Counted from the first letter of the stretch, positions 8,656 through 38,310 are shown. The stretch is 38,310 nt of DNA from an uncultured Pelosinus sp. (GCA_946415545.1 CAMKSY010000004.1:1-38310), one strand, 5' to 3'. Notes: generated by a model not told the origin, from the letters alone. Program-made: numbers and translations.

Positions 8656-8675
8656 ACAATTAGTGATGTTATCGT

Positions 8676-8921
8676 TTAAAAATCATCCGCACTAACACTG
8701 TCATATACTTCTTCTTCTAAATCAGTTAAATCCTCATCCATGCTCTCAACATACGTTTCCAGGTCAGCCTGCCCCATCTGGATATTATTGATTTCATCAG
8801 CCATATCATCCAGTACATCAATGATATTGATCAGTAACTTCCCTTCATCTGAGTGTAAACGGATATTAAGTCCTCGACTTAGCCCTTGCAAATAGGCTAC
8901 TCGTTCTTTAATATTAGCCAT
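8676..8921 (-). CDS. CD1247 N-terminal domain-like small acidic protein
   Basis: IKERVAYLQGLSRGLNI ... SDEGKLLINIIDVLDDMADEI pattern. Confidence 0.6.
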   Translation of the reverse strand: MANIKERVAYLQGLSRGLNIRLHSDEGKLLINIIDVLDDMADEINNIQMGQADLETYVESMDEDLTDLEEEVYDSVSADDF

Positions 8922-8969
8922 TTCTTCAATTCCCCTTTATACAATTTGATACTGTGAAAATTAGCAATT

Positions 8970-9977
8970 TTACGCTACACCATTATCTAAGTTAACTCGA
9001 TCCAGCATAATACGGACTTGTTTTCTAAGTATATCAATGGTTGAACGGACTTCACCAAGATTACTGTCTAATAAGCTTTCATATTCAGTCACCTGCTGTT
9101 TCAACCCTTGTAATTGTTGAATGGCATTATTCGCAGTGGTCTTAGACACTACATTCTGATCCCGTAAGGTAGCTGCAAACTCAGAAGCTAGCGATTTAAG
9201 CGTTTTCTTGACACTTAGCACTTGAGCATTACCACCGAGCATACTACCAATCTGTGAAACTTGGCTCAGTACGTGACCTCGAAGCTTTTCTTCCAGCATT
9301 TGCTTTTGCTCATCCGCATTAACCACGGGTAAATAGTGCATTTCAACTGCACTGCTAGGTAACATCTTAACTAGAGAATTGAGTGCTTTGATCGTAGGCT
9401 CATATGTTGCTGGTATAAAATATACAGCACCTGCTGGACGTACTCCGACTGCTTGGCAGTCACCTAATGCTGTTTTAATCAGCCTTCTAATATGGTCAGC
9501 TATAAAATAGTCACGATATTTACCATACAGCACTTTGGCTTTATTTAGTGCTGGCTTTGCTTCATCGGTAAGAGCTATCACGTTCATGGTTCCCCATTGC
9601 CGTTCAAATTCAATTTCACCGATTTTTTCATAGTTAAGCTGAACGTTCTTTTTATCTCTGACTTCTTTAATCAAATGCCGCACCACTCGATCTTCTGCCG
9701 ATAATACTTCTCTTACCATGAGAACCTCTGTGATTTCCTCACCTGTTTTTAACACACCACCAATTTCTGATGTCGCCCGACGAAATGCATCACTGGGTCG
9801 GATCGGCGCAGGAACATACTTTTCAGGCAGTCCAACATTCATTGCCAGCTTTACTAGATCATCTCGTAGTATTTCCATATCCGAAACACTAAACCAAACT
9901 AAATTACCAAGGATATTATCAGTAGTGCCACCGTTCACAGCATATAATTTTGTTGCATCATGTATCATTGTTGACAT
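8970..9977 (-). CDS. DUF6744-like phage/plasmid protein
   Basis: 335 aa; GNLVWFSVSDMEILRDDLVKLAMNVGLPEKYVPAPIRPSDAFRRATSE; ATG at 9977 follows GGGAGCG. Confidence 0.55.
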   Translation of the reverse strand: MSTMIHDATKLYAVNGGTTDNILGNLVWFSVSDMEILRDDLVKLAMNVGLPEKYVPAPIRPSDAFRRATSEIGGVLKTGEEITEVLMVREVLSAEDRVVRHLIKEVRDKKNVQLNYEKIGEIEFERQWGTMNVIALTDEAKPALNKAKVLYGKYRDYFIADHIRRLIKTALGDCQAVGVRPAGAVYFIPATYEPTIKALNSLVKMLPSSAVEMHYLPVVNADEQKQMLEEKLRGHVLSQVSQIGSMLGGNAQVLSVKKTLKSLASEFAATLRDQNVVSKTTANNAIQQLQGLKQQVTEYESLLDSNLGEVRSTIDILRKQVRIMLDRVNLDNGVA

Positions 9978-9995
9978 TTTAATCGCTCCCATTTT

Positions 9996-11384
9996 TTATA
10001 TTTTTTGAAATAATTCTTTTACAATAGTCTCATCTAACAAATCGTTTATACTCCATACCTCGTCTGACCAGCGTTTTAACTCACTCGGATTATTACCAAT
10101 GAGGATGCTGTAAATCCTAAACTGTTTATCCAATTGCACTTTCTGCAATTCTTTTAAAAATTCATTACCAATAGCACATTCGCCATCCGTAATCATGACA
10201 ATATCAGCCTTATTGAATTTACTCTCTTGTAGCTTCCCAATCGCCCATTGCAACGGTTGCTCAAAATCAGTACCGCCACCAATGAACTCACTTGCCAGTT
10301 TTATCAACTTATCTGGCGAACGTTGCCCAACCTGAAAGTCATCGGTTATTAAATCAGCCCTACCACTGGCAAAGAGCGCATAACTAAACGACCTGCGCTC
10401 TTTTTCCGCAATTTCAGCTAGACCTAACGCCATCCCTTTTGACCAAACTTCGCGTCCACCACACATGGAACTGGAAGTATCTATTAATACGATAATCGGG
10501 CCTTGTCCCATATATTCTCGATGATTAAGGTCATATTGCAGTAATTGCTTCTCCATCATTCTCCTGTAGAAATCCAGTTTTAATGCTGGTCTACGAAGTG
10601 CCATTAATTCTTGTGGCAATACATGGTTGAGATCAGCCCCTTGCGTAATGGAATGTAGTTCAATGCGATGTTCTAATTTGGACTTGCGTGAACCAGTAGC
10701 TAAATTTCTTATGCGCCCAACAAGCTTTGTCATATCTTTAAACTTCTGCTGTCCGCGCAAGACCTGTAATAATTCTAGCTTTTTGTTATAGGCTAATCGT
10801 TCAAACTCACCCTGGTTCAGTCCCCAAGAAGTAATAATATTTTCTACTTCTTTTACCTCAGTAACCGCTTTATCTGTAGCAAGCTCTACTGCTTGTCTCA
10901 AAGCACTCTGCATACCAGATACCATCTGATGAAGCTCATCAGATGGTATGCTTGCTTGTTGCTTTACTGCGTCATTGATTTTATTTGAAACCTCTTTTAA
11001 ATCACTATCCTGCTCCAATTGTTTCAGTAAATTTTCAAGCAGGGCTTTGCTACCAAGCCCTGCTCCTAATTCATCTAGTTGGGTATATTCTCTTAATTCT
11101 TGATAGGACTGTGATTCTATCAGCTTTGACATCAGCTCATGATTTAGCAAATATTCCGTTGCCAGCTCTTTTAGTGGGGTTAGCTCTGGCTTGACCTTAT
11201 AAAGCGAAAAGAATACGTCCTCAGCCATTTCTGAGAACGTATTTAATGTTTCTACTCCTTGCCTACTTAGGTTTTGCAGTTCTTTTGATTGATACAGTAC
11301 TTCTTCATATGCAACCCGATCAAACGCATCATTGCAAACGCTATTTCGTGATAATGCACTGTTATTTTTTCTCATAACAGCCAT
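9996..11384 (-). CDS. vWA domain protein, ViaA-like
   Basis: MIDAS residues IVLIDTSSSMCGG, GGTDFEQPL, VMITDGEC; partner gene is RavA-like. Confidence 0.85.
   Translation of the reverse strand: MAVMRKNNSALSRNSVCNDAFDRVAYEEVLYQSKELQNLSRQGVETLNTFSEMAEDVFFSLYKVKPELTPLKELATEYLLNHELMSKLIESQSYQELREYTQLDELGAGLGSKALLENLLKQLEQDSDLKEVSNKINDAVKQQASIPSDELHQMVSGMQSALRQAVELATDKAVTEVKEVENIITSWGLNQGEFERLAYNKKLELLQVLRGQQKFKDMTKLVGRIRNLATGSRKSKLEHRIELHSITQGADLNHVLPQELMALRRPALKLDFYRRMMEKQLLQYDLNHREYMGQGPIIVLIDTSSSMCGGREVWSKGMALGLAEIAEKERRSFSYALFASGRADLITDDFQVGQRSPDKLIKLASEFIGGGTDFEQPLQWAIGKLQESKFNKADIVMITDGECAIGNEFLKELQKVQLDKQFRIYSILIGNNPSELKRWSDEVWSINDLLDETIVKELFQKI
10919..10949. repeat. Perfect 14-bp inverted repeat inside the ViaA-like gene
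   Basis: ATACCATCTGATGA-AGC-TCATCAGATGGTAT. Confidence 0.9.
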
Positions 11385-11386
11385 CG

Positions 11387-12520
11387 CTATATACCGAGAA
11401 GATAGGTATTCACTACATTCTCATTCATTTCCTTAATCTGTGCTAAACGCTCAATAATTTTACTTGTTGCTTTTCCCTCACTTTTAGCCTGTTTCAGTAG
11501 CCCATCCAGCATTTTTTGAGCTACTTTAAATTTATGATTGGCTTCTGTCGCCATACCAGTACGCTCGGCACTATCTGGTGTTTCTTTTAGCTTAGCCGCC
11601 AATTCAAACGCTCCGTCAAATATTTCATTAGCTTTTACAGTCAGAGGATTAGCAAAGCCCATTACGATTTTCTTGCTTTGCTTGATTTGTTCAGGATCAG
11701 TCCAAAGCATATTGGATAAGATGACAATATCATCATCAGCTACAACATTACGACCTTCGAGCCAAGCGTGAGCCTTTAAGAAACGCAGGCAATTTCTGAA
11801 ACGACGATCTGAAATAATAAAGCCTTGGCTTTTCAACTCTTTCCAGAGCCGTACCAAGGCATTGATTGTATCATCGGATATATTGACTTGTGCTGCTTGT
11901 TGCTGTGCGCTCTGTAGCTCTTGCAGGCTAATTGTAGTAGATGGCGCATTTGTACTGAATTTTAGCATCGTCGCAAAATTTCGTTCGTCTTTTACATAAT
12001 CAACTGTATATTTCAAATCAAATCGATCCCATAGTGCTGCCAATTCCCCATTGACTCCACCATCAGGAAGCTCATTGGAAAGTCCAACTAATACCTGTAG
12101 CGGGATTGGCTTATGAGTACTGCTATCATCAAAATATACCCGTTCATTCATAATTGGAAGTAGCGTATTTAGTACTGCACTGTTACATTTAAAAACTTCA
12201 TCAATTACCGCAACATCAGCCTCTGGCAATTTTCCGACTGTCACTCTTTTATATTTATCATTTTCTAATGCTTTTAGCGATAAAGGCCCGAAAAGTTCTT
12301 CGGGAGCGGATACTTTAGTTAATAATCGGCTAAAGAATTTACCGTCAATCTGTTTTGATAACGCTTCGGCTATAGCAGTTTTTGCCGCACCGGGTGCACC
12401 AATAATCAACAGATTGCCCTTAGCTACTGCGGTTACGAGGAGACCACGTATAATTTCTTCACGTTCCATGAAGCAACCATTGAGTTCTGTTTCTAGCCGT
12501 AATAACTTTTTGTGTATCAT
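11387..12520 (-). CDS. MoxR/RavA-like AAA+ ATPase
   Basis: LLIIGAPGAAKTAIAEAL Walker A, VAVIDEVFKCNSAVLNTLLPIMNER, APEELFGPLSLKAL, VGLSNELP: RavA-subfamily motifs. Confidence 0.9.
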   Translation of the reverse strand: MIHKKLLRLETELNGCFMEREEIIRGLLVTAVAKGNLLIIGAPGAAKTAIAEALSKQIDGKFFSRLLTKVSAPEELFGPLSLKALENDKYKRVTVGKLPEADVAVIDEVFKCNSAVLNTLLPIMNERVYFDDSSTHKPIPLQVLVGLSNELPDGGVNGELAALWDRFDLKYTVDYVKDERNFATMLKFSTNAPSTTISLQELQSAQQQAAQVNISDDTINALVRLWKELKSQGFIISDRRFRNCLRFLKAHAWLEGRNVVADDDIVILSNMLWTDPEQIKQSKKIVMGFANPLTVKANEIFDGAFELAAKLKETPDSAERTGMATEANHKFKVAQKMLDGLLKQAKSEGKATSKIIERLAQIKEMNENVVNTYLLGI

Positions 12521-12557
12521 TTAAAATCTCCTACCTTATATTTTTATTGGTTATTTT

Positions 12558-13637
12558 CTAACAAGCCTCTTTCGCTTTTACTAGTCGAAAGGTTTTTGTC
12601 ATCTTTTGTTTACCATACAACTGTAACTGCGCATCCGTAATCCCCATTTTCTTTAGATTGGCAGCAGTGAGCGTTAAATATTGAAATACATCCATCCCTC
12701 GATCATGAAGTTCGCTGCATAGTTCATACAGCTTTTCAGCATCAATATTCCAGCTCACACTCGGAACAAAATCAAAGGTACTATCTCCTACTGCAATCGC
12801 CCCATGTTCTTTTGCCCAAGCTTTCAAATGCTCTTTCATTTCAGATGTAGCACTTTCTAGTCGAATTACCTCTGCGGCTACTCGCTGGGCATCTATTTCA
12901 TCATGAATTTTCACAGGTTCAATATGAAGGCTTTTAATACAAAGACTGGCATGACTACAAGTTTGACAATGTTTCCCCGGAGCAGCAGGGAATAGACGTT
13001 CATCCTCTACCCCATCCAGTAAATTCAGCTCTGCAACCTTATCCTCAATTTCTGTTGCGAGCGCTAGTGCCCACTTTCTGGCTTTTTCCATTTCAGCGCT
13101 TTTATAGGTATAGGCTTGCCGACTATCCGCATAGGTATACCGCAGAAACACCAGCTCGGCATCAATTTCGGTAGCACCTGTCACTTGAGATAAATACCAG
13201 CTATATAAGCCTAACTGATGATTATCAGTAGGCGCATATTTTTGCCGATTGCTTTTCCAGTCAATCAACTTCACAACACCACTGGGTAGTTGCTCATACC
13301 AGTCAATATACCCCTGAAGCTGAATCACACCCTCACGGTCTAGTGGAATTAGAAACTGCTGCTCAACCTGCCCACCTTGAACTTCCCTTACCATCGGATG
13401 ATCAGCCAAGCGCAGTACTTCATCACAATCAACAGGCAATTCAGCTTCTTGTAAAATAGCTTGTTCCACTGCATTTTGTAGCACCGTACCTGTTAGATAT
13501 AGCTGAATGGCGGTATGAACGGTTTTACCTAGTACCAGTGGTTCAGTTGGTAGTTCTGACATTTCATACAAATATTTATATTGAAAAGAAGCGGGACAAT
13601 CAGCATATCGCTTTAGCCGCGAATAGCTATAGATCAT
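12558..13637 (-). CDS. PD-(D/E)XK nuclease family protein (RecB/Cas4-like)
   Basis: YSYSRLKRYADCPASFQYKYLY; VVKLIDWKSNRQ; C-terminal Cys set CQTCSHASLC. Confidence 0.85.
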   Translation of the reverse strand: MIYSYSRLKRYADCPASFQYKYLYEMSELPTEPLVLGKTVHTAIQLYLTGTVLQNAVEQAILQEAELPVDCDEVLRLADHPMVREVQGGQVEQQFLIPLDREGVIQLQGYIDWYEQLPSGVVKLIDWKSNRQKYAPTDNHQLGLYSWYLSQVTGATEIDAELVFLRYTYADSRQAYTYKSAEMEKARKWALALATEIEDKVAELNLLDGVEDERLFPAAPGKHCQTCSHASLCIKSLHIEPVKIHDEIDAQRVAAEVIRLESATSEMKEHLKAWAKEHGAIAVGDSTFDFVPSVSWNIDAEKLYELCSELHDRGMDVFQYLTLTAANLKKMGITDAQLQLYGKQKMTKTFRLVKAKEAC

Positions 13638-14638
13638 GCCGCTTCACCCGCCTTAACCAGCGCATATTCTTCAATCACATTCGTCCCCTGTTTTGCTGTC
13701 ATTTTTGCCGTAATAAGCGAACCCGCTGGAATATCGAGTATTTCGGCTTGCGCCGACCATGCCAATATATGCGTATCACCTTGTTGTAACACGACTTTAG
13801 CAAACACCTGTCCATTTCCTTTCTTTTTTGCTTCGCTACTAATGATGCGATACGCATTGCCAAGCTCTAGATTTTCCTCATGAAATACATCAGGAATGAC
13901 TTCTGATACTACCTGCGGTATAACTGGTACTATCACCTCTGCGCTCTGGCTTGTACTACAATTTAGCCACGCAAGCAATTTTTCTCCTGTTTCAGCATGT
14001 GGTTTAAAATATTGCCCATCAAATAACCCTGTACGGTCTTTGCTGGCAATGGCAATGTGTTCTGCGGATATATCGAGAAATATCGTAAATTCATACTCCA
14101 TCCCATCACGTTGTATCGGTGCCATTCCTAATTTCTTGACAACAGATTTACCATTTTCCGTAACTTGTGTATATTCGGTTTTAGATCTCATCGTTGCAAT
14201 AACATGACAGGATGATTTTAAGATGGCATCCACTAACGCATTATGTTTTGGCGTGCACTCTCGCCAAGCAGCCCAACTGTTTCCTTTATATTTAGAATCG
14301 GCAGCTTTGCCTTGTTGGTCAAGTATACCACCTTCTCCTGTCCAAGCATGGCTTAGACTATCAATAATGATGACTTCAAAACCTTGTCGTTCGGCAGTTT
14401 TTATAGCTTCAATATACTTCTCTGGCGTATAAGGAGTACCAAGTGTAAGCACAGAATAATCTCCTAAATGGGCATATAGTTCTGCACTGCCATTTTCACT
14501 ATCAATGACAGCAATTTTATTCCACGTTGTCATGCCGCTGGCAATAACTAAGGCAGAATAACTTTTACCAGCACCACTAGTTCCAGCAATAGCTAAGCGT
14601 AGTTTGGCGCTTTTCCTTTGGGCTGTTTTAAATTCCAT
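13634..14638 (-). CDS. AAA family ATPase, Sak4/RecA-like phage recombination NTPase
   Basis: LRLAIAGTSGAGKSYSALVIA Walker A; VIIIDSLSHAW Walker B; 4-nt overlap with the nuclease gene. Confidence 0.85.
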   Translation of the reverse strand: MEFKTAQRKSAKLRLAIAGTSGAGKSYSALVIASGMTTWNKIAVIDSENGSAELYAHLGDYSVLTLGTPYTPEKYIEAIKTAERQGFEVIIIDSLSHAWTGEGGILDQQGKAADSKYKGNSWAAWRECTPKHNALVDAILKSSCHVIATMRSKTEYTQVTENGKSVVKKLGMAPIQRDGMEYEFTIFLDISAEHIAIASKDRTGLFDGQYFKPHAETGEKLLAWLNCSTSQSAEVIVPVIPQVVSEVIPDVFHEENLELGNAYRIISSEAKKKGNGQVFAKVVLQQGDTHILAWSAQAEILDIPAGSLITAKMTAKQGTNVIEEYALVKAGEAA

Positions 14639-15165: not shown

Positions 15166-15969
15166 TTAGTCTATTCCTGAAAATTCATAGTCAGTTACTC
15201 TAGCGTTATTCACACTCGCCTTGAAGCTCCATGTATTTCCACCTTTTAAGCTCATAAGTGTATCACTAGCAGTACCAATTTGATTACCTTTGGAATCATA
15301 TAAAGCAAAGGTAATTGTAGGAAATTGTTCCCTATTAGATATGTTTTTTATCTTCCCTACGATATATCCATCTTTTATAGATGGTTTTTCAACCCATTCA
15401 AATTTTTTATTAATATAATTACCGGTATTTTTGTTACCTTTATCGTTATTAGTGTTATTATCTTGAATAATATACTTTTGGTACCATTCTTCCAATGGCA
15501 TTATCCTACCGTCATTTATAAATAAATCCCCAGTTTTAGAATCCACAAGAATCATCTGCGTTCGACTTAATCCTATTAACCCGAACACATAGCATTCTGA
15601 TTCTAATCCATCCAACTTACGTTTTCCATCTTCAGCGGTAATGGAAACGGAAGATGGAAATTTGTGTTTATCTACCCATGTTTGGAGACGCATCTTCGCT
15701 TCGCCAGCATTCAAGCTCACATCCTTTTTAGGGCTTTCATTTACTGCCGCTACAGAAGGTTTATTTCCAGGACTACTACCTCTTTCACTATTGGGAGTTC
15801 CCGTCATCCCCAAAGCTATGAAAAGAACTATAAATAAACCACCGTAAACCATGAGTACCCTCGGTCTTGTTTTCTTTTCTCCCCACTTAATTACTAAACC
15901 GGGTTTAATTAGACCAACAACCATAGCAATTAAACTTGCTAATATTAATAATACTAATACCTTATCCAT
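15166..15969 (-). CDS. Membrane protein with C-terminal FxLYD-like domain
   Basis: Two N-terminal TM segments; C-term GYIVGKIKNISNREQFPTITFALYDSKGNQIGTASDTLMSLKGGNTWSFKA. Confidence 0.7.
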   Translation of the reverse strand: MDKVLVLLILASLIAMVVGLIKPGLVIKWGEKKTRPRVLMVYGGLFIVLFIALGMTGTPNSERGSSPGNKPSVAAVNESPKKDVSLNAGEAKMRLQTWVDKHKFPSSVSITAEDGKRKLDGLESECYVFGLIGLSRTQMILVDSKTGDLFINDGRIMPLEEWYQKYIIQDNNTNNDKGNKNTGNYINKKFEWVEKPSIKDGYIVGKIKNISNREQFPTITFALYDSKGNQIGTASDTLMSLKGGNTWSFKASVNNARVTDYEFSGID

Positions 15970-16113
15970 ATTCTTAGCCCTCCTATTTTACATTAGTAGA
16001 AACCTTTGATTTCACGGCAGTGCTTGGTTACACCGTGCTAGTTGATATAGTTATAACCGTCCAACACCAAAGACTCTCCTCGTCTATATTCCAGACCTTT
16101 CTCGACACTCATT

Positions 16114-16281
16114 TCAGCGAACCTCGGGCATATACTTTCCTTTCGTAAGCATATGATACATTTGATAGTTATTTAATTTGCAATTTGGGCAAGGGCTATC
16201 AACAAATTGTACCTGTTTGAGAGTATATGGGCATTGAGAGCAGAGTGGTTTGCTTAAATAAAGTAGTTTCTTTGTTTTCAA
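16114..16281 (-). CDS. Small putative zinc-ribbon protein (55 aa, TTG start)
   Basis: GGGAGG RBS; MKTKKLLYLSKPLCSQCPYTLKQVQFVDSPCPNCKLNNYQM: two CxxC pairs. Confidence 0.45.
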   Translation of the reverse strand: MKTKKLLYLSKPLCSQCPYTLKQVQFVDSPCPNCKLNNYQMYHMLTKGKYMPEVR

Positions 16282-16347
16282 TAAAATCGCCTCCCAAGAC
16301 ATAGATAGAGTGACGGTGGCACCCACAGTCAATTCGTTTCCCTATAT

Positions 16348-16818
16348 TTAGATTCCGTCATAAAATGAATCTTTAAAACCGGCTCTTTCACCATAGAAAC
16401 GCATATTATACGCCAAGTAAAAAGCTATTTCGCCTGCTGGCATGGCAACTCCTGTTTCAGCATAGGTTCCATTCGGTTTAAGGTATCGCCAATCCAAATC
16501 GGAGTTTGGATCTTCCATTGGAACATACATATTTCGTTGATCATATCGATACATGAAATGATATGTTTTCACAGCTGATATTTTCGTCTTGCTACTATCA
16601 GCATCAGGTACGCTTACAACGTCAACAGCAATGATATAAACCGGCGGTTTATATTGTTTCACAACCAAAGAACTACGATCAACATAATACCCTCCCCCCA
16701 TATGTCCTGCACACAGAATATAATTTGAATCTCCATTCAAATGCGCTGGGTAGGCAAAGGTTACGGAAACTAACATCACCATGATTACTCCCACAAAGGT
16801 AGATACTATTTTTCTCAT
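16348..16818 (-). CDS. Secreted hypothetical protein
   Basis: Signal peptide MRKIVSTFVGVIMVMLVSVTFAYPA; GGAG RBS. Confidence 0.7.
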   Translation of the reverse strand: MRKIVSTFVGVIMVMLVSVTFAYPAHLNGDSNYILCAGHMGGGYYVDRSSLVVKQYKPPVYIIAVDVVSVPDADSSKTKISAVKTYHFMYRYDQRNMYVPMEDPNSDLDWRYLKPNGTYAETGVAMPAGEIAFYLAYNMRFYGERAGFKDSFYDGI

Positions 16819-16874
16819 AACTAATCTCCAGCAGTTGAAGGCCGTTCTGCCACTTGGCCTAAATTACTATATTA

Positions 16875-17525
16875 TTATGATGGATTGTTGTCAGATTTTA
16901 TAGAAGCACCTATTAGAGCATCCAATCCAGTAAGTGGCTTTCCACCTCTATAAGCCGTAGAAATATCCGACATAGCCGTGTATGCTACACTTGTTCCAAT
17001 GGCATCAGCGCAGTAATTTTGTGCACGGTCTGCTGCTATGCCAAGTTTACCTGCTTCCATTACAGCATCCATATTTGCGCCAAAGAATACAAATTCCCAC
17101 CCATACTTTTCTTTTTGGCGTTCTATTCTTCTTTTAACACGCTCCGCCGAATATTCACGACTAGCATTTTCCTGCCCGTCAGTAATAATGACAAAGAGCA
17201 CTTTCTCAGCACGATAATTCTCAGCTGTATGCTTCTGCACCGCACGTATTTTGTGGATTGTCCTGCCTAGCGCATCAAGCAGCGCGGTATTTCCTCCAAC
17301 AGTGTAATTCTTCTCCGTCAGCGGCGAAACCGCTCTAATGTCGATCCTGTCGTGAAGCAATTCGTATCGATTGTCAAACAATACAGTAGTTACGACAGCC
17401 TCGCCTTCAACAGCTTGCTGTTCTTTTAGCATGGAGTTAAACCCGCCGATGGTGTCTTTTTCAAGCCCTTCCATGGATCCGCTCTTGTCGATAATAAATA
17501 CCAGTTCAGTTAATCCTTTTTTCAT
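16875..17525 (-). CDS. vWA domain protein (TerY-like)
   Basis: ELVFIIDKSGSMEGLEKDTIGGFNSML, VGGNTALLDALG, LFVIITDGQEN: intact MIDAS. Confidence 0.9.
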   Translation of the reverse strand: MKKGLTELVFIIDKSGSMEGLEKDTIGGFNSMLKEQQAVEGEAVVTTVLFDNRYELLHDRIDIRAVSPLTEKNYTVGGNTALLDALGRTIHKIRAVQKHTAENYRAEKVLFVIITDGQENASREYSAERVKRRIERQKEKYGWEFVFFGANMDAVMEAGKLGIAADRAQNYCADAIGTSVAYTAMSDISTAYRGGKPLTGLDALIGASIKSDNNPS

Positions 17526-17573
17526 GTTAAATTCCTCCATCATATTTTATTATGTACGATTACCCAATCCAGC

Positions 17574-18317
17574 TTATGCCGCATAAAATGGTGTTTGATC
17601 TTCTAATCTTAGCGCACACAAGTTAGCATTTGGGTATCTTCCGAAAAGCTTCGCCCCAAGATCAATATCAATAAAAGATACATCTTGGATTTTATATTTA
17701 AATAATCTATTTGGTGCTATGTTGGAGTTATTTTCATAATGCAATAATACTGGTGTGTGTCCATGCACAATTATTTTGCCAGCATACTTATGGAATAATG
17801 TGTGTTTGTCAATTGCTACATCACAAGTAAAATCCAGATTTTCGTTTTGCATCAACCTACCCCAAATTGAGTCATCAGGAGTATATCCTACATCTTTTGG
17901 TAATGCGTGACAGAGTACGTATGAATATTTTATTGTTTCGATTAAAATGTCGTATTGCATATCCTTGAAAAATTTGGAAACGTATTTTTGTTCTGGATCT
18001 TCAAATTGAAGAAATTCTCCACCAGTCCCATGGAAACAATCATCAAATCTGTTTAATAAACTTGCGGGCCATCTGCGCGGTTTAAAACGTTCGATATGAT
18101 CATACAGCATTTTTTCATGATTGCCCCATAACTTCGTAATGCGACAAACGTTCTTTAAAGATTCTACATATTGTAATACTGCCAGCCACTGTGATTTTCG
18201 ACCAACATAATCACCTAAGAATATTACATGATCCTCCTTGCTTAAGTTCAGTTTTCGAATCAGTGTTTGCAATGCCTCAATCTGTCCGTGGATATCGCCT
18301 ATCGCATACGTTGCCAT
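17574..18317 (-). CDS. Metallophosphoesterase (PPP-type Ser/Thr phosphatase-like)
   Basis: ATYAIGDIHGQIEALQTLI; VIFLGDYVGRKSQ; LWGNHEKM; IIVHGHTPVL. Confidence 0.88.
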   Translation of the reverse strand: MATYAIGDIHGQIEALQTLIRKLNLSKEDHVIFLGDYVGRKSQWLAVLQYVESLKNVCRITKLWGNHEKMLYDHIERFKPRRWPASLLNRFDDCFHGTGGEFLQFEDPEQKYVSKFFKDMQYDILIETIKYSYVLCHALPKDVGYTPDDSIWGRLMQNENLDFTCDVAIDKHTLFHKYAGKIIVHGHTPVLLHYENNSNIAPNRLFKYKIQDVSFIDIDLGAKLFGRYPNANLCALRLEDQTPFYAA

Positions 18318-18494
18318 AGCCATTCCCCTTTAAAATTTATTTGATTTATGTCCAATTTAATAATATATACCGGATATATAGGCAGATACGATAAGGCTTT
18401 ACTATAGTACCGTTATCTCGCCTTGTGATTTTTAAAATTTTCTTTCATTCCATTCGCCTATTACTTATGACCTTATTCTAACGCATAAATAATA

Positions 18495-18556
18495 AGGAGA
18501 GTTCACTTCGAAAGCGACATATTCACTCCCGAGCTCCCTCTCCCAATAATTCTTCC
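18495..18556 (-). repeat. Terminator-like repeat copy 1
   Basis: AGGAGAGTTCACTTCGAAAGCGACATATTCACTCCCGAGCTCCCTCTCCCAATAATTCTTCCG; similar to 18822-18880. Confidence 0.75.
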
Positions 18557-18624
18557 GAGACTATAATTGAATTTTACCATTATCTTTCGAATACTCTGTT
18601 GCTTTAGGTACCTCTTCTTCGGTA

Positions 18625-18762
18625 TTACTGGTTTTTTGCACCTTTTACTTTTGCCCATCCCCAAAGAGCAATAGCAACAGCAACACCAACAGCAACGATA
18701 CAACCTTCTGCACCATCTGCGTGTATTTCATCTTTCTTAATAATAATATTTTCTTCGTTCAT
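18625..18762 (-). CDS. Small single-TM protein (45 aa) not in the ORF track
   Basis: AGGAG RBS; MNEENIIIKKDEIHADGAEGCIVAVGVAVAIALWGWAKVKGAKNQ. Confidence 0.6.
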   Translation of the reverse strand: MNEENIIIKKDEIHADGAEGCIVAVGVAVAIALWGWAKVKGAKNQ

Positions 18763-18821
18763 TATAACCAACTCCTCATCTCTTAACGAATTTCTATCTT
18801 TATTTTAATGCAGATAAAAAT

Positions 18822-18880
18822 AGGAGAGTTCGCTTCGAAAGCGACAAATTCACTTTCGAGCTTCCTCTCCTAATAATTGT
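18822..18880 (-). repeat. Terminator-like repeat copy 2
   Basis: AGGAGAGTTCGCTTCGAAAGCGACAAATTCACTTTCGAGCTTCCTCTCCTAATAATTGT; outer stem AGGAGAG/CTCTCCT, inner CTTTCGAAGC/GCTCGAAAG. Confidence 0.75.
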
Positions 18881-19569
18881 TGATCATATTTGAGTAAAAC
18901 ATCATTTATTTGAAATATATCATACCTACCTTTTACGATAAAATATTGCACGATTATATCGAATTTCTTATTGCGTGAGAAGGAATAACCAGCACAAGCA
19001 AGCAGGCTCTCCGTTTCTTCTAGATTTAATTCTAATCCAATCGCAAGCGCAAATACTGTTTTTTTGCTTGGAGTATAATCGTCTTTTCTTATTTTCGAAA
19101 ACAACTTGCTACCTATGTGAGCGCGTTTGTAAACCTCAACATCCGTTTTTCCTTTATCATCTATCAATCGTAGCAGAGTTCGCGAGAACGGCTCGTCACG
19201 TTTTCCTATTAGATAATCAATGCTGTTGGCAGTGCTTGATGAGCTAGATAAAACCCCAAATCTTGGTCTTTCAAACCTAAAACTTTTGTTAGCACTTTTG
19301 CTCTCACTGTCACCTTTTAAGATACGCCCTAATTTGCTTTTTAGCTTTTCCTTTAAATAGTTCCCTAAGTATTCAGTTTGAGAAGTCGTTAAGTTATCGA
19401 CCCGTATGCTCTCCGTTATCAAACGTTTAAACTTTTCCTCTTTGTAATGATCTCTAACATATATGTCAACCTCATTATGCAAGTTTGCGTTTAGCGACAG
19501 GTTGTCAGCATTCACATTGGCATCGGCATTTATGATAGTTATGTCTTTATTGCTAATGTTGGAAGGCAT
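18850..19569 (-). CDS. HTH-like domain protein with Asn/Asp-rich N-terminus
   Basis: GAGGTG RBS; C-terminal YKRAHIGSKLFSKIRKDDYTPSKKTVFALAIGLELNLEETESLLACAGYSFSRNKKFDIIVQYFI shared with the protein at 25032. Confidence 0.65.
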   Translation of the reverse strand: MPSNISNKDITIINADANVNADNLSLNANLHNEVDIYVRDHYKEEKFKRLITESIRVDNLTTSQTEYLGNYLKEKLKSKLGRILKGDSESKSANKSFRFERPRFGVLSSSSSTANSIDYLIGKRDEPFSRTLLRLIDDKGKTDVEVYKRAHIGSKLFSKIRKDDYTPSKKTVFALAIGLELNLEETESLLACAGYSFSRNKKFDIIVQYFIVKGRYDIFQINDVLLKYDQQLLGEEARK

Positions 19570-19749
19570 GGTTTGCACCTCACTAATATATAAGTGGTTA
19601 AGCGTGGTATATGGTTAAGCGTTCACAAGAAAAAGTCCTTTTTTGTGAAAAATAAAGGGCAGATTTTTATACCTGCTCACCTTAACGAATAACAAATTAA
19701 ATACACTGCCGAAAGTGCTACGAAAAATATAACACAAATTGCGCCCTAT

Positions 19750-20010
19750 CTATTCTCTGTCATACCACCCATTTTCGCTTTTCACATAGCCACGTTCTTC
19801 AAGTATACCCGCAATAATCTTTTTGTCGTCGTCTGATATAAAATGATTGTTTATTTTATTTAATAAATCACCATCACTTTGCCTATCCAAAGCATTATAA
19901 TGCTCTTGTTCACGCTCTTTTACAGTCTTATAATTATTTCTTTCTTTTGATTCATTTATTTGCTTGCTTTTTTCGTCAAAACTTGCTTTAAAACTGTCAA
20001 AAAAACCCAT
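19750..20010 (-). CDS. Hypothetical MGFFD-type small protein
   Basis: AAGGAGG RBS; MGFFDSFKASFDEK ... ISDDDKKIIAGILEERGYVKSENGWYDRE. Confidence 0.6.
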   Translation of the reverse strand: MGFFDSFKASFDEKSKQINESKERNNYKTVKEREQEHYNALDRQSDGDLLNKINNHFISDDDKKIIAGILEERGYVKSENGWYDRE

Positions 20011-20036
20011 GGATTACCTCCTTATACTTAAGCGAA

Positions 20037-20252
20037 TCAATTTTCCTTAATAACACCGCGCTCTTTTAGTATCACCACTATTACCTTGAATCTGTTTTTA
20101 TTGTCGTTGCCAGATTTCCCTTTAAGTTCCTTGTATTCACCTACAAGCTCCGCATTACTCATGTTCTCATATTCACTTCTTAAAGATTGTAATTCTTCTC
20201 CCATAGCAGCCATTTTCCCGGCAACTTCACCTAAAAAATCAAAAAAACCCAT
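20037..20252 (-). CDS. Hypothetical MGFFD-type small protein, paralogue of 19750-20010
   Basis: AAAGGAG RBS; MGFFDFLGEVAGKMAAMGEELQSLRSEYENMSNAELVGEYKELK ... IVVILKERGVIKEN. Confidence 0.6.
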   Translation of the reverse strand: MGFFDFLGEVAGKMAAMGEELQSLRSEYENMSNAELVGEYKELKGKSGNDNKNRFKVIVVILKERGVIKEN

Positions 20253-20314
20253 TCTGTCATCTCCTTTTATACAGTCAAATCGAATTGGCAATATAACGAG
20301 GCTATTTACTATCT

Positions 20315-20623
20315 TTATCCCTCATACCCTTTTGGATATTTTATATCAAGACGATCCCTGTGATTGATAATTTTAGCGCCCATAATCATCTCGTGGCAAG
20401 CCATAAGATGACTTCTGATATTTTGCAGTTGCTGTTTGGTATGCGGCACTACATATTTTTCAGAGCCTACTTCCAGTAGCTGTATATACCAATTAACCAT
20501 ATCCAATTTACCAAGAGTATAGCTACTTAGAATCATTTTATCGTTTGCGTCTTTAACAGCCTCTGTCTCAATCTGGATATACGACACCAGATCATTTGGT
20601 ATTCTTTTGAGTTTTTCAGCCAT
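20315..20623 (-). CDS. Hypothetical protein
   Basis: 102 aa; RBS AGGAGTG; colinear with neighbouring genes. Confidence 0.55.
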   Translation of the reverse strand: MAEKLKRIPNDLVSYIQIETEAVKDANDKMILSSYTLGKLDMVNWYIQLLEVGSEKYVVPHTKQQLQNIRSHLMACHEMIMGAKIINHRDRLDIKYPKGYEG

Positions 20624-20673
20624 GGTAATTTCACTCCTATGCCTCTTCCATCAATTAGAGGGAATTTCTGCTA

Positions 20674-22053
20674 TTATAATAGTCCCTTCTTTTGATTGTT
20701 TTCTGCAAATATTTCTTTTACAATATTGAAGCCATATTTTGCCATCGCTACTTTAGGATTAGACATAACCTCAACAATATCAACATCATTTAAAGCATTT
20801 TTTGCGATATTCCCAACTTTATTCAGAGGGCTTTCAACAACCTTAGAAAATTCCTTATTCAGCATCACATCAAAATCCATACTTTTAAGACTTTCTTGAA
20901 GACTTTCGAGAGAAACCTTCGGGGCATTTAAGTATCCTAGTTCCCATGAAGCATCGGTACTGCCTTGTTTCGCTGCTTTATTAAGCCACTGCCTACGCTC
21001 ATAATCATTTTCTACAAAGTTATACCACTCACTTATATGCCACATAGCCTCGTTGTTTCCTTGTTCAGCGGCTTTTTTATACCACATAAGCGCTGTTTGT
21101 TTGTCTTCCTGTACGCCACGGGCATACCAATAGCACTCCCCTAACCGTGTTTGCGCACGTGCATCTCCCTGCTCTGCGGCTTTTTTAAATCCTGAAAAAG
21201 CCAACCCAAACCATAACTCAGCAGCCTCTATATTTTCCTCCACGCCTTCATTGCAAAGGTATCGCCTAGCTAACTCGTATTGCTTACATGCGTCGCCTTG
21301 TTCGGCGGCTTCTTTTATTTTGTGGAATTCTTCCTTCTTTTCCTCAGCACACCTTGTATCATATATTTTGTCCCAATAATCCGCTTTGTGTTTATCATAA
21401 ATTCTAGATAACATATTTCCATATATGCCTCGTAAATTAGACATTGCATCACTATTTCCTTGTTCAGCAGCTTTTTTCAACCAATAAATAGCTTTTTCTT
21501 TATCTATATTTATACCATAACCATCTTTAAAACATTCCCCCAAGTTACATTGTGCTATAGCATCACCCTGTTCAGCCGCTTTCATGCAATCGTTAAAAGC
21601 AGTTTTAAACCAATAGTCAGATTCATTTTCATTTTTTTCTGTACCTTGAGTGCCAAACTTATAGTTCCGAGCTAAACTAATTCGTTCTTTAAAATCACCT
21701 TGTTTAGCGATATTTATTCTCTCAGGCAAAACCACTATCTCCCATATCCGAGCACCTATTTCATCATTATCTCTTCCACATCTGCGTATCATATCCATCT
21801 GGGCATAAATATTACCGTTTTCAGCAGCTTTGGTTACAACGTCGTTTGACAAGTCCCCAAAATAATTTGGATCCGATTTGAAAAAGCTGCCTATCTCGAT
21901 GGGGTCACTATTTTCACCGTCGTCAGTGTTTGTAGCAGATATGACTTCTGTATTATTCTCTGTCAAAGTTTCTTTATTAAGCAACTTCGTTCCACAATTA
22001 GCACAAAACTTGGCGGTATCTGCTGCTTTTGTTCCACATTCAGTACAAAACAT
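20674..22053 (-). CDS. Zinc-ribbon and Sel1/TPR-like repeat protein
   Basis: MFCTECGTKAADTAKFCANCGTKLL; repeated KAAEQGDAxAQxxLGECYxxGxGVxxDKxxAxxWxKKAAEQGN. Confidence 0.9.
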   Translation of the reverse strand: MFCTECGTKAADTAKFCANCGTKLLNKETLTENNTEVISATNTDDGENSDPIEIGSFFKSDPNYFGDLSNDVVTKAAENGNIYAQMDMIRRCGRDNDEIGARIWEIVVLPERINIAKQGDFKERISLARNYKFGTQGTEKNENESDYWFKTAFNDCMKAAEQGDAIAQCNLGECFKDGYGINIDKEKAIYWLKKAAEQGNSDAMSNLRGIYGNMLSRIYDKHKADYWDKIYDTRCAEEKKEEFHKIKEAAEQGDACKQYELARRYLCNEGVEENIEAAELWFGLAFSGFKKAAEQGDARAQTRLGECYWYARGVQEDKQTALMWYKKAAEQGNNEAMWHISEWYNFVENDYERRQWLNKAAKQGSTDASWELGYLNAPKVSLESLQESLKSMDFDVMLNKEFSKVVESPLNKVGNIAKNALNDVDIVEVMSNPKVAMAKYGFNIVKEIFAENNQKKGLL

Positions 22054-22201
22054 ATTGTTACCTCCGATGTAAAATTTTTTTAAATCCTACACACAATTTG
22101 CATAAAATAATATAGCCTATGGAAATACGTGGCAAACAAATTCCATAGGTTATAGGGGTTAAGAACAAATAAAAAATTGCACTTAAAAATTATTTACTTA
22201 T

Positions 22202-22429
22202 TTATAACAGCCTGCTTGCCTCAACGCTAGGCTCGTAACGCTTACAATTAGAAGTATTATTACCCGTAGAACCAATTACTCCGTTAGTTGCCATACATTT
22301 GCCAGGGACACCTGTGGTAAACTGGAATCCTGCTGTTGGACTCTTAAACTCAAGATCGGCATTTCCGTTCCATCTTTTACAAAATACGCAAAATTTCACT
22401 TGTTTGGGATGAGCAACTTGTTTAGCCAT
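22202..22429 (-). CDS. Small Cys-containing hypothetical protein
   Basis: GGAGG RBS; MAKQVAHPKQVKFCVFCKRWNGNADLEFKSPTAGFQFTTGVPGKCMATNG ... NCKRYEP. Confidence 0.55.
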   Translation of the reverse strand: MAKQVAHPKQVKFCVFCKRWNGNADLEFKSPTAGFQFTTGVPGKCMATNGVIGSTGNNTSNCKRYEPSVEASRLL

Positions 22430-22573
22430 ACTGTTTACCTCCATTAGATTAGTTTCCATTTCTTAATAAATATACCATCAATAATTCCTATGGTCAATAT
22501 TATGTCATTTAGACCGTTAATTCCTTTTAAAAGGTCATCTATCCTGTATATAGTAAAGGAGATGATGCTAACA

Positions 22574-22918
22574 ATGTACAATATTGACTATAAAGAACTT
22601 GGAAAACGCATCCGAGCGGAACGACGAAAAAAAGACCTGACACAAGAAAAGTTAGCAGAAATGGCCAATATTAGTGATTCTTTTATGGGACATATAGAGC
22701 GCGGTGGTCGCACATTAAGCATAGAAACATTGGCTAAACTTGCCAACGCCTTAAACCTCAGCATTGAGTATATCATTTGCGGAGAGTTTAATTATCAGCC
22801 ATATATGCTTCCTGCAGAAATACTTGATGCACTGAACCGTATGAGCAGCAATCAGCGTAAGGTATTCCTAAATATGATGAAAACGTTGGCTGCGCACCAA
22901 GATATGTGGCCTGTGTAA
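22574..22918 (+). CDS. XRE-family HTH transcriptional regulator
   Basis: LGKRIRAERRKKDLTQEKLAEMANISDSFMGHIERGGRTLSIETLAKLANAL; AAAGGAG RBS. Confidence 0.9.
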   Translation: MYNIDYKELGKRIRAERRKKDLTQEKLAEMANISDSFMGHIERGGRTLSIETLAKLANALNLSIEYIICGEFNYQPYMLPAEILDALNRMSSNQRKVFLNMMKTLAAHQDMWPV

Positions 22919-22989
22919 TAAAACTTACTATTATTTTTGCTAATACGTCCGACAATATCTCCCTTATATACATATAACAGAAAAAGGCA

Positions 22990-23022
22990 CCAAAAGACAG
23001 TGCCGGCAGCACTGTCTTTTGG
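22990..23022 (-). terminator. Hairpin terminator 3' of the porin-like gene
   Basis: CCAAAAGACAGTGC-CGGCA-GCACTGTCTTTTGG. Confidence 0.8.
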
Positions 23023-23071
23023 TTATGCTCTTAATTATACATTCTGCTTACTACAGTGAATAACTAGTGTT

Positions 23072-23749
23072 TTAAAATTTATAGCTTACTCCAAGGCCAA
23101 TACCTTTAGCTGTCATATCAACATCACCAAGGCCGTTGTCGAAGCTCATTTTCTTAGCTTGGGTTCTGCGATAGTCGATGTTCAATTCGAGGTTAGGAGC
23201 GATCTCTTGAGAGATGCCTACTTTCCAAGTATTGTAGCTGGATGCAAAACCTACTTGAGCATATGCAGTGGTTTTATCAGCTAGCTTAGTGCTGCCCATT
23301 AGACCGAATTGCATTTTGTTTTTACTGCTGGAAGATGTACCACTACCTTCATCGTTGATGGTACCTTTAAGATTAACCATACCTACATATGCAGATACAT
23401 TTTTATCAAGCTTGTAAAGCACGTTGAATTCCTGTGTTTTCAAGCTGCCGTTTTCACGATAGGTTCCACCAGCGCCATCAGGAAGATTGGTGTCTTTGGA
23501 TTTGTTATTAGCGTTGGTGTACTGAAATGCAAAGTTGCCACCAAGACCTGTAGTGATTCCAAATTCCATATTACCTTTTTTGCTGAGAGCATCATTGACG
23601 GATTGACTGGTTGCATCGATACTTGATTGTCTCCAAGTCATATCGATCTGAGTTTTACCTGCCGAATAATCATTCAGCGGTGAAGCAAAACCCACACCAG
23701 TTGTTAACATAGTAGCTGCTACCATCGCAAGTATAGCTGTTTTTCTCAT
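23072..23749 (-). CDS. Outer-membrane beta-barrel / porin-like protein
   Basis: Signal peptide MRKTAILAMVAATMLTTGVGFASP; amphipathic strands; C-terminal GLGVSYKF ends in aromatic F. Confidence 0.8.
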   Translation of the reverse strand: MRKTAILAMVAATMLTTGVGFASPLNDYSAGKTQIDMTWRQSSIDATSQSVNDALSKKGNMEFGITTGLGGNFAFQYTNANNKSKDTNLPDGAGGTYRENGSLKTQEFNVLYKLDKNVSAYVGMVNLKGTINDEGSGTSSSSKNKMQFGLMGSTKLADKTTAYAQVGFASSYNTWKVGISQEIAPNLELNIDYRRTQAKKMSFDNGLGDVDMTAKGIGLGVSYKF

Positions 23750-23870
23750 TATTCTTTCGCCCCTTTTCAAATTTTAACAAGTAACTATTGTCTCCCTTTT
23801 AGGAACTCTTACTGTTTCATTTAGCACTACACACGACAATAGCTTTCTTATATACTTATAACAAAAAATA

Positions 23871-23909
23871 ACAATAAAGGACAGTGCTGCCAGCACTGTC
23901 CTTTATTGT
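23871..23909 (-). terminator. Hairpin terminator 3' of the kinase gene
   Basis: ACAATAAAGGACAGTGCT-GCC-AGCACTGTCCTTTATTGT perfect 18-bp stem. Confidence 0.85.
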
Positions 23910-23915
23910 GTTATC

Positions 23916-24983
23916 TTAGAGATGTTGTTCGATAGAAGTTGCGATAGAAAACAGCCATAAGCCTAATAGAAGATACAGAATAACACCAAAAACTTTTACT
24001 ATTATAATTCTTGATCTTAGTAGCGGAATTTTCCCCCATATCCGCAGGAAATTTGTAATCAGTAGGTAAGGAGGAACACATAAGATTATCCAACACCCAA
24101 GTACAACCATTGATTTCAATATACTTCCGTGCAAATTCCACTGTGATAAAAAAGAGATAGCCATAAGTACCGCCATGATTATATAGATGCCCAATGCTAC
24201 TTCCTTTTTCCACCATACTCCCGTACGAAACCCTGGTATGTGCCCTATAAATCCTGGCACCTCATGCATTCCAAGCTGTTGTTCTAACTCCTGTACATTT
24301 TGATACCGTCCTTTTGGGTCAAGCTCAATACAGTTTTGTATTATTTTTTTATATCTCCCTTGGTAAGGAGACTTAATTTCATTGGGTTTATAGCCGGTGA
24401 TAAGCTCATGAAAAAGAATGCCAATAGCATATATATCAGTACGAGGGTCTGACGATGCAAAGCCATATTGTTCAGGAGCAGCATAATTGGGCGTTCCAAC
24501 AAGCTCGGTATCCCTTTGTTTGTTGGGGGTAAACTCTTTCGAAGCATCGAAATCAATGAGTTTTATAACCCCATCAGACGAAAGCATGATATTACCCGGT
24601 TTAATATCCCTGTGAATGATAATCGGATTCTGCTCATGGAGCTGTTTTACCGCTTCGCATAACTGTCCAATCCACTGTACCGCTTTTTCCTCTAGTATTG
24701 TCCCATTAGCAAGAATCTCTCCTAACGTTGTACCGTTGATATATTCTTCATATGTATAGCAGAAATTAAATTTGCTTTCTTCCAAACCTATGACCTGTAC
24801 CAAATTCCTGTGCCTTACGTTAACCAACTGTTTATACAATTCCATGTTTATTCCACTGATTTTTTTTCGAACAATCAGTTTTTTCGTTTCATTATGGCAC
24901 ATAAGGGTTATATTTTCATTCACGCTTAAATCAATCAGACTACTATATTCCTGCGGGTCAAAATTCTCAGCAAAGTATTGCAT
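23916..24983 (-). CDS. Membrane-anchored Ser/Thr protein kinase
   Basis: IIHRDIKPGNIMLSSDGVIKLIDFDASKEF; VGTPNYAAPEQYGFASSDPRTDIYAIGILFHELITG; C-terminal TM helices; ATG 24983 with GAGGTG RBS. Confidence 0.92.
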   Translation of the reverse strand: MQYFAENFDPQEYSSLIDLSVNENITLMCHNETKKLIVRKKISGINMELYKQLVNVRHRNLVQVIGLEESKFNFCYTYEEYINGTTLGEILANGTILEEKAVQWIGQLCEAVKQLHEQNPIIIHRDIKPGNIMLSSDGVIKLIDFDASKEFTPNKQRDTELVGTPNYAAPEQYGFASSDPRTDIYAIGILFHELITGYKPNEIKSPYQGRYKKIIQNCIELDPKGRYQNVQELEQQLGMHEVPGFIGHIPGFRTGVWWKKEVALGIYIIMAVLMAISFLSQWNLHGSILKSMVVLGCWIILCVPPYLLITNFLRIWGKIPLLRSRIIIVKVFGVILYLLLGLWLFSIATSIEQHL

Positions 24984-25031
24984 TATAAACACCTCGATAT
25001 TACAATAGAGAAAAATATTGGAGGACATAAA

Positions 25032-25469
25032 ATGGAAATAACCACTGGTGGATTATCAGAAATCCTAAAAAATGCGAAGGACATCAATAACTTTCTTCAA
25101 GAGAACGAATCATATATCACAAATCCTACATTACAGGAATATCTAAAGAATTTATTAGTATTAAAAGGATTGAAACGTCAGGATGTAATCAAAAATGCCC
25201 AACTTGATAGCAACTACATAAACCAGCTTTTCAGTGGTATCAAAACAAAACCTGGCAGGAATCAAACCTTGTCTTTAGCATTTGGCTTTGGGCTGAATAA
25301 CGAGGAAACTGCTAGGCTTCTTAAAATTGCCAAAGTAGGCGCACTATACCCCAAAAACAAGCGTGATGCCGTTATCATCCACTCCCTTGAAAAAGGGAAC
25401 TCTATCACGCAAACGAATGAGACTTTGAATTCTCTTGAAATTGAAACATTAACCGATTATAGAAAATAG
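25032..25469 (+). CDS. HTH-like domain protein, paralogous to the C-terminus of 18850-19569
   Basis: GGAGG RBS; LKRQDVIKNAQLDSNYINQLFSGIKTKPGRNQTLSLAFGFGLNNEETARLLKIAKVGALYPKNKRDAVIIHSLEKG. Confidence 0.7.
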   Translation: MEITTGGLSEILKNAKDINNFLQENESYITNPTLQEYLKNLLVLKGLKRQDVIKNAQLDSNYINQLFSGIKTKPGRNQTLSLAFGFGLNNEETARLLKIAKVGALYPKNKRDAVIIHSLEKGNSITQTNETLNSLEIETLTDYRK

Positions 25470-26882: not shown

Positions 26883-28598
26883 ATGGGTTACAATATTAAT
26901 GATCTATTACCCTTTACCGATGACAAAAGAGGTAAGTTTCTTGACTTTGCATTAAAGACCGGACACCCAATAATTACGGATTATAGCCGAATAGACAGAG
27001 AAATTGTTGTAAAAGATAATATGATTATGCTTGGAGATTACAAAAAGAAAATAAAAATCACCTCTATTGATGAGTTAGAAAAAATATTTCTCGACCTTAT
27101 TAGAATGATATACACCATCCAACTCAATATTGTGGACTATGTTTGGAGCGGACATGAACCAGTAGTTCGTTCTTGGGATTCTAACCGTAAGGAGCAGTTA
27201 AACAATCTCGCTAACCAACATAAAGAGATGTGGCTGCTCCTTGCAAATCAATTAGTATTTGACGTTTTATATGACAAATACCTTAAAGATTCGCCGCAAT
27301 TAACACTCAATGAGTATTGCGAAAGTCATATTGATTTTAACTGGGATAGTTCTATTACAAAGAAGATCGCTGGCAAAAAGGCTAACGAACTTGGCAATAC
27401 TCCCGATACGTATATAGAATGTATAAAACTTGCACTTGCCCAAATTAAGTATAAAGTAGCAGACGGTTTTGAAAAAACGCTTTTCACCCAAAAGCTAAAA
27501 ACTTCCATTGAATTTATAAATGTACATAAAGTAGACTTTGCTAAAATTAAAACTCCTAAAGAGAAAGTTGAAAAATTGAATGCCTATAAAAAAATAAGCG
27601 TAACTGTTGAGGAATTAGCTGCAATTGAAGCTATAATGGAAGATACAAAAAAACTCAATTTTAAACCTGAGCACTACATTGATAATTTATTGAGAGAATT
27701 AATAAAGGCAAAAAACAGAAGCACAAAAGCGTTAAGATCAGAAATCACAAAAGAAGTTAATATAAAAAACAATCCGGCTTTAAAAGAGGATGCAAAAAAA
27801 TTTGGTGTTAATCCTGACAAATATCTTGAACGCGTTGGAAAAGTTAATGATTTTTTTCAGACAGACCGAAAAAGGTATAAATATGAATGGGATTATCTCT
27901 ATTATAATCGTTATATGATTACGGCGCGGCAGTATGATAGAAATTTTGGGATCGACAGAGTTAAACGCAGTTATTATTATGGGCATTTTGTTAGAGATTT
28001 TGATGCTTATGACTGCTTTGCAGAAAGGCTCCTGCCGAAAGATATTGATAAAGGTTATGAATATTTTCGCAAGTCTATGGACTTTTACCATTTAGAAAGA
28101 TATAAGCGGTTGGATTATATTTATAAACTTGCTGTAAAAATGGAAAACATCGGTTTAACTGATATAGACAGGGAGCATTTCTTGGTAAAAAGATTTCACC
28201 CTTGCGTATTTTGGCCTTTAATGGACAACGAGAATAATTGTCTGCGTTATCACGATAAACCCAAGTATTATCTGCCTCTTCTGTTTATAGAAGAATCTTG
28301 GCTAAAAAAGGAGAACTTTGACAACCAACCACTTTTTGATGAGTATAATTTGGTTAGGGCAAAAGCATATGAATTATTCGAGTATCATTTTGATTTTGCT
28401 TCTGAAGACTACGATGATATAGAAAGTTTTATACGCACTCACTACAACCTTTCAAAGTATCACACTCCTAAAAAAGAGTGGTATAATCCGGATAAAAGGT
28501 CACGAAATCAAACCATGCGCATCCAAAACGCAGATATTATAAACAAAGCCTTATTCTGGGATTCTGATAAAAGGCTACCAGCTAACATTTCCGAATAA
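26883..28598 (+). CDS. Large hypothetical protein of unknown family
   Basis: 571-aa uninterrupted ORF between parB-like and ftsK-like genes; Tyr/Asp/Lys-rich, no motif recognised. Confidence 0.75.
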   Translation: MGYNINDLLPFTDDKRGKFLDFALKTGHPIITDYSRIDREIVVKDNMIMLGDYKKKIKITSIDELEKIFLDLIRMIYTIQLNIVDYVWSGHEPVVRSWDSNRKEQLNNLANQHKEMWLLLANQLVFDVLYDKYLKDSPQLTLNEYCESHIDFNWDSSITKKIAGKKANELGNTPDTYIECIKLALAQIKYKVADGFEKTLFTQKLKTSIEFINVHKVDFAKIKTPKEKVEKLNAYKKISVTVEELAAIEAIMEDTKKLNFKPEHYIDNLLRELIKAKNRSTKALRSEITKEVNIKNNPALKEDAKKFGVNPDKYLERVGKVNDFFQTDRKRYKYEWDYLYYNRYMITARQYDRNFGIDRVKRSYYYGHFVRDFDAYDCFAERLLPKDIDKGYEYFRKSMDFYHLERYKRLDYIYKLAVKMENIGLTDIDREHFLVKRFHPCVFWPLMDNENNCLRYHDKPKYYLPLLFIEESWLKKENFDNQPLFDEYNLVRAKAYELFEYHFDFASEDYDDIESFIRTHYNLSKYHTPKKEWYNPDKRSRNQTMRIQNADIINKALFWDSDKRLPANISE

Positions 28599-33175: not shown

Positions 33176-33207
33176 CAAATTTTTCACCCCCGCAAATCAC
33201 TTGCTTC

Positions 33208-38304: not shown

Positions 38305-38310
38305 TAAAAC

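Follow-up and report, generated by a model that had tools for sequence, protein, structure and literature searches.

The question raised by this locus is whether a protein kinase, a phosphoesterase and several putative regulators encoded close together form one signalling system or several. The window comprises all 38,310 bases of contig C4 in the draft genome of an uncultured Pelosinus sp. and carries between positions 15166 and 25469 genes for a membrane Ser/Thr kinase, a metallophosphoesterase, a vWA protein, a zinc-ribbon/Sel1 protein and two proteins with a helix-turn-helix (HTH)-like domain, which a preliminary description had read as one distinct phospho-signalling or defence-like module with the phosphatase included. 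The open reading frames (ORFs) and domains obtained by Pfam, NCBIfam and PHROGs scans match that description with small corrections, all of the listed genes being present, some with slightly shifted ends. The neighbourhood evidence leads to another reading, which we hold to be the probable one: the cluster would be cargo of an element in sigK and contain two regulatory pairs, independent of each other but each based on the same XRE-like domain, and the kinase would act on its adjacent HTH partner.

The first pair (module A) consists of the kinase gene (23916–25028, minus strand) and the divergent gene of the XRE-like regulator HTHk (25032–25469, plus strand; 145 residues, with a possible earlier TTG start at 24978). 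The kinase (Pfam Pkinase, E=2e-34) keeps the HRDIKPGN, DFD and APE motifs with intact catalytic residues and ends in three predicted transmembrane (TM) segments, in agreement with its earlier description as membrane-anchored, and an alternative start at 24983 leaves a 48-bp intergenic gap to the HTHk gene. In a set of 100 relative genomes, where neighbours were counted within 15 kb, the HTHk homologue adjoins all of the best kinase matches (9/9), and 9 of the 11 HTH matches have an adjacent kinase. The HTHk alignment was then scanned against 84,980 GTDB genomes and resulted in 55 loci, inspected up to 10 kb on each side; the kinase lies within 2 kb of HTHk in 42 of them, 38 of these being divergent as in the window, and within 4 kb in a further 3. 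In a separate phylum-wide sample the kinase adjoins the short HTHk gene in 7 of 9 loci, in some of them co-directionally. An XRE (HTH_3) regulator gene convergent with the kinase (22490–22918, plus strand) can be counted as belonging to module A at some of the loci. Of 45 kinase loci, 13 (the window among them) have such a gene no more than 1.5 kb from the 3′ end of the kinase, 12 of the 13 being convergent, and its density is 0.23 per kb near this end versus 0.02 per kb in the rest of the loci, approximately 11-fold higher.

The adjacency of HTHk and a membrane Ser/Thr kinase is also found in Listeria, where the kinase is 33% identical over residues 4–350, has the same TM tail and stands divergent from a 151-residue HTHk homologue (E=3e-32); by the lmo numbering we take these genes to be lmo0618 (kinase) and lmo0617 (151-residue protein). 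With an insertion in lmo0618, replication inside Caco-2 cells fell 11-fold; for confirmation, an in-frame deletion mutant was constructed (PMC3091722).

The AlphaFold2 model of HTHk is all-helical with a mean predicted local distance difference test (pLDDT) score of 92, and in a Foldseek search its central part resembled XRE/Cro-type HTH proteins (DdrO, C-protein, Cro) with probability 1.00 and E-values of 0.015–0.2. Three residues, Thr5, Tyr62, and Tyr106, are identical across 40 of 40 aligned homologues, and Thr5 is located in an N-terminal tail that is variable otherwise, making it perhaps the best candidate phosphosite.

The second pair (module B) consists of the vWA gene (16875–17543, minus strand) and an HTH protein gene (HTHm; 18850–19578, minus strand). 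The vWA protein was earlier said to possess an intact metal-ion-dependent adhesion site (MIDAS), and indeed the DxSxS, T, and D elements are all there; its best PHROG match is phrog_7371 (E=4e-60), while in Pfam only weak TerF-like/VWA matches below the cut-off were obtained. Relatives of this protein with approximately 45–66% identity adjoin genes of macro-HTH proteins, i.e., full-length relatives of the 18850 product which are composed of a macro domain (Pfam Macro, E=6e-41) and the HTH domain. Such a gene is adjacent at 19 of 29 vWA matches in the 100 relatives and at 10 of 11 in the phylum-wide sample, and the pair is present on 14 of 79 phage contigs with vWA, as well as on named plasmids and one phage. 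In the window the HTHm and vWA genes are likewise neighbours, with the phosphoesterase gene sitting between the two.

The window copy of HTHm does not possess an intact macro domain. Alignment with full-length macro-HTH proteins shows that its residues MPSNISNKDITIINADANVNADNLSL correspond to the macro start and are followed by the post-macro linker, approximately 25 N-terminal macro residues being left, and the N-terminal 60 residues score 13.1 bits with the macro profile, a value reached by none of 1000 shuffles (none above 6.7). According to this comparison the macro domain is lost by in-frame deletion. Macro-less HTH genes adjoin vWA genes elsewhere too, at loci L091, L117, L099, and L100.

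The preliminary observation that the two HTH proteins share one domain was borne out by two methods: tblastn aligned HTHk and the HTHm domain with 32% identity over 98 residues (E=9e-4), and the profile-profile comparison gave a probability of 98.9% and E=2.7e-17 over 120 columns. As judged from these comparisons and from their neighbourhoods, modules A and B are separately conserved two-gene pairs whose XRE-like C-terminal domains are homologous. Both adjacencies, kinase/HTH and vWA/HTH, are found again in independent genomes and exceed chance.

The rival view is that of one integrated phospho-signalling system, in which the kinase and the phosphoesterase together set the phosphorylation of the vWA protein and of both HTH proteins. 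The homology of the two HTH domains speaks for it, as does the presence of both modules and the phosphoesterase within 10 kb in the window; modules A and B also stand within approximately 10 kb of each other at locus L095 (contig C4 of genome G048), the only other place where they were found together. In the relatives a vWA gene lies within 15 kb of the kinase at 1 of 9 kinase loci, but vWA, macro, or phosphatase genes were detected at 0 of the 55 GTDB kinase/HTH loci, and 0 of 20 loci in the phylum sample have both modules. The neighbourhood search proposed earlier, for the HTH-like domain together with vWA, phosphatase, and kinase, hence recovered the kinase and the vWA protein as partners in separate pairs but not the phosphatase, and a single five-gene module was rejected on the counts in relatives, GTDB, and the phylum sample.

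The phosphoesterase itself (17574–18323, minus strand; Metallophos E=3e-15, NinI-like phrog_246 E=7e-28), whose gene is 30 bp upstream of vWA, also argues against the integrated system. In the 100 genomes its relatives were never seen within 15 kb of vWA, lay within 15 kb of a kinase once and near an HTHm gene twice, and have no recurring neighbour; among the matches listed, those of full length from phages and plasmids share less than 30% identity with it. On present evidence it probably belongs to neither module. The metallophosphoesterase assignment stands, with GDIHG, GNHE, and HGH present, whereas the earlier label of a PPP protein phosphatase is insecure because motif 2 is GDYVGR and so departs from GDxVDR, whose Asp it lacks, and the nearest solved structure is ApaH (motif 2 GDLVARG). 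By its motifs the enzyme may be either a protein phosphatase or an ApaH-like nucleotide hydrolase. With the phosphoesterase set aside in this way and the modules apart at nearly all other loci, the integrated system is improbable.

The earlier suggestion that the cluster is carried by a mobile element is supported by the integration junctions. Same-genus chromosomes align with the window from 32839 rightward with 82–95% identity, the N-terminal part of sigK occupies 32825–33187 (minus strand), and the right end of the element falls at about 32838. The continuation of sigK is on contig C307, and there the other junction is flanked directly by the C-terminal 380 residues of a large serine recombinase (Recombinase and Zn ribbon domains), so that both an insertion inside sigK and a large serine recombinase at one end are found, as in skin-like elements. 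By these two junctions the cluster is assigned as accessory cargo of a skin-like element integrated in sigK. The left end of the window and C307 are not joined in the assembly, and the element length of at least 32.8 kb is a lower bound. A second sigK-intervening element with its own 517-residue large serine recombinase is located further into the gene, and sigK of this genome is therefore interrupted twice, by two different elements with separate recombinases (window 32825–33187 and C307 = L292, 1127–2826). Six relatives (G001, G002, G004–G007) have sigK interrupted at about the second site, with the C-terminal half approximately 5–20 kb downstream of the N-terminal half (L275–L285), and in G003 the sigK frame is also short.

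A further view is that the region is a chance collection of mobile-element cargo with module B decaying and with no functional link beyond each conserved pair. The macro deletion in HTHm, a resolvase gene split into ORFs, and the lack of a common partner set across loci fit this view, but the HTH-vWA core has been kept with the MIDAS intact, and macro-less HTH genes also stand beside vWA at the four other loci named above; we regard a chance collection as possible, though not the likely explanation. Anti-phage defence appears less likely still. Here the kinase and HTHk would be an abortive or toxin-like pair, the vWA/macro-HTH proteins would take part in ADP-ribose-linked conflict, and accessory genes would be pooled on the mobile element, in line with the mobile carriage, the vWA/macro-HTH pairs on phage contigs, the ADP-ribosylglycohydrolase genes close to some of these pairs, and matches of the kinase domain to PADLOC PD-T4-6 and Mad6. 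These PADLOC matches reflect the kinase domain in general and were rejected as a defence assignment; furthermore the macro domain is lost in the window copy, and the kinase pair exists in Listeria, where lmo0618 loss lowers intracellular replication (PMC3091722), which is more like general signalling.

Under the favoured reading of two independent pairs, the membrane-anchored kinase of module A would sense an envelope or cytoplasmic signal and phosphorylate the divergently encoded HTHk, perhaps at Thr5; phosphorylated HTHk would change its DNA binding and consequently transcription at the shared divergent promoter and at other sites, so that module A would work like dedicated kinase-transcription factor pairs. 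In module B the vWA protein would work with the HTH protein; the macro domain normally carried by such HTH proteins would serve to sense ADP-ribose or to remove it, and with the macro domain gone an HTH-vWA pair would remain in the window. Several points weigh against this reading. Both DNA binding and phosphorylation of HTHk are predictions; the Foldseek matches reach no better than E=0.015, a weak value explained by the small size of the domain; the first helix of the AlphaFold2 model begins at residue 5, and the conservation of Thr5 may reflect a helix N-cap; a search for an operator motif common to the HTHk upstream regions found none; and 10 of the 55 GTDB loci, at least 3 of them cut by contig ends, have the short HTH protein but no kinase that was detected. 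In the operator search, a palindrome shared between kinase and HTHk was dropped, as nothing consistent appeared and the recurrent 8-mers resemble ribosome-binding sites. At one locus (L109, contig C73 of G044, 7900–8100) the nearest HTHk relative, with approximately 60% identity, has retained the upstream DNA including the would-be kinase start, and no kinase was detected there; CTACAATATTACAATGTAG of this locus and CTCGATATTACAATAGAG of the window may represent a candidate operator.

To our knowledge, few bacterial Ser/Thr kinases have a known dedicated partner, and the presence of the kinase/HTHk pair in Negativicutes, Clostridia, and Listeria together with an invariant Thr in the variable tail of HTHk means that this kinase-substrate assignment can be tested directly. 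Through the domain common to both modules, the pair is also connected with the macro-HTH/vWA operons, which are widespread in Bacillota and phages and uncharacterised. As a speculation that we consider rather doubtful, the XRE-like domain family could serve as the adaptor shared by two or more Bacillota cassettes, one run by a membrane Ser/Thr kinase and the other by vWA with ADP-ribose (macro) sensing, and elements like that of the window could join the cassettes, with phosphorylation and ADP-ribose signals converging on DNA-binding proteins of one family.

The remaining genes of the region are connected with the modules loosely or not at all. The zinc-ribbon/Sel1 protein (20674–22053, minus strand; Sel1 E=1e-22) and the small secreted protein (16348–16818, minus strand) both have homologues in an Anaerovibrio kinase locus (L209), the latter with 131 bits and E=4e-38. 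Zinc-ribbon genes occur in 12 of 58 kinase loci, a weak enrichment at best: their density is 0.024 per kb in kinase loci against 0.014–0.015 in vWA control loci and 0.032 in chromosome stretches of the genus, and the association was dropped. At a kinase locus of Anaerovibrio slackiae (L224, 535–8320) about seven zinc-ribbon proteins with differing C-terminal parts are encoded in a row downstream of the kinase. No conserved link was shown for the FxLYD-domain membrane protein (15166–15969, minus strand; NF038353, E=5e-15); a relation to DUF5067 was rejected, since the Listeria DUF5067 protein fails to align with it and NCBIfam indicated no FxLYD in the kinases tested. Outside the cluster, an operon of phage/plasmid type at 8326–14638 encodes DUF960, DUF6744, vWA, MoxR ATPase, PD-(D/E)XK, and AAA_24 proteins, its MoxR matching the bpMoxR model; the small serine resolvase at 6649–7317 consists of two ORFs and is apparently a pseudogene; a 571-residue protein (26883–28598) between the ParB and FtsK-like genes matched nothing in Pfam, PHROGs, NCBIfam, PADLOC, or plasmids; and a c-di-AMP riboswitch (ydaO/yuaA) at 38163–38310 precedes an NlpC/P60 gene.

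Among the known systems that come close is the TerY-P triad, composed of the TerY vWA protein, PP2C, and a kinase with a C-terminal zinc ribbon or OB fold (PMC11090510); the comparison was based on this source and PMC7824862. The window region also has a vWA protein, a kinase, a phosphatase-like gene, and a zinc-ribbon protein nearby, but its phosphoesterase is a calcineurin-like metallophosphoesterase instead of PP2C, its kinase ends in three TM segments with no zinc ribbon found by Pfam, and its genes do not co-occur elsewhere. TerD, PP2C, TerC, and TerB were all absent among the scanned window proteins, as had been noted earlier for TerD, and a TerD-family gene cluster is located on contig C193 of the same genome (535–2086). 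Because PP2C and the zinc-ribbon kinase are lacking, TerY-P membership is rejected, and the cluster departs from the triad as first described.

The Listeria lmo0617/lmo0618 genes (for an uncharacterised 151-residue protein and a protein kinase) resemble module A in divergent arrangement, in a kinase that is homologous over its full length down to the three-TM C-terminus, and in HTHk homology, while they differ in a chromosome-type neighbourhood, a DUF5067 lipoprotein gene after the kinase, and the absence of vWA, macro, and phosphatase genes within approximately 7 kb of the kinase. Operons with macro-HTH and vWA genes in Bacillota and phages, whose products are annotated as “macro domain-containing” or “O-acetyl-ADP-ribose deacetylase” and “vWA domain-containing,” share with module B the homologous HTH domain, the vWA protein, and the gene order, whereas the window copy is without the macro domain and has the phosphoesterase gene inserted. 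In PknH-EmbR and AfsK-AfsR a Ser/Thr kinase is encoded near its dedicated DNA-binding partner; the partner in the window is XRE-like, without an FHA or SARP domain, but the logic proposed for the kinase and HTHk would be that of these systems.

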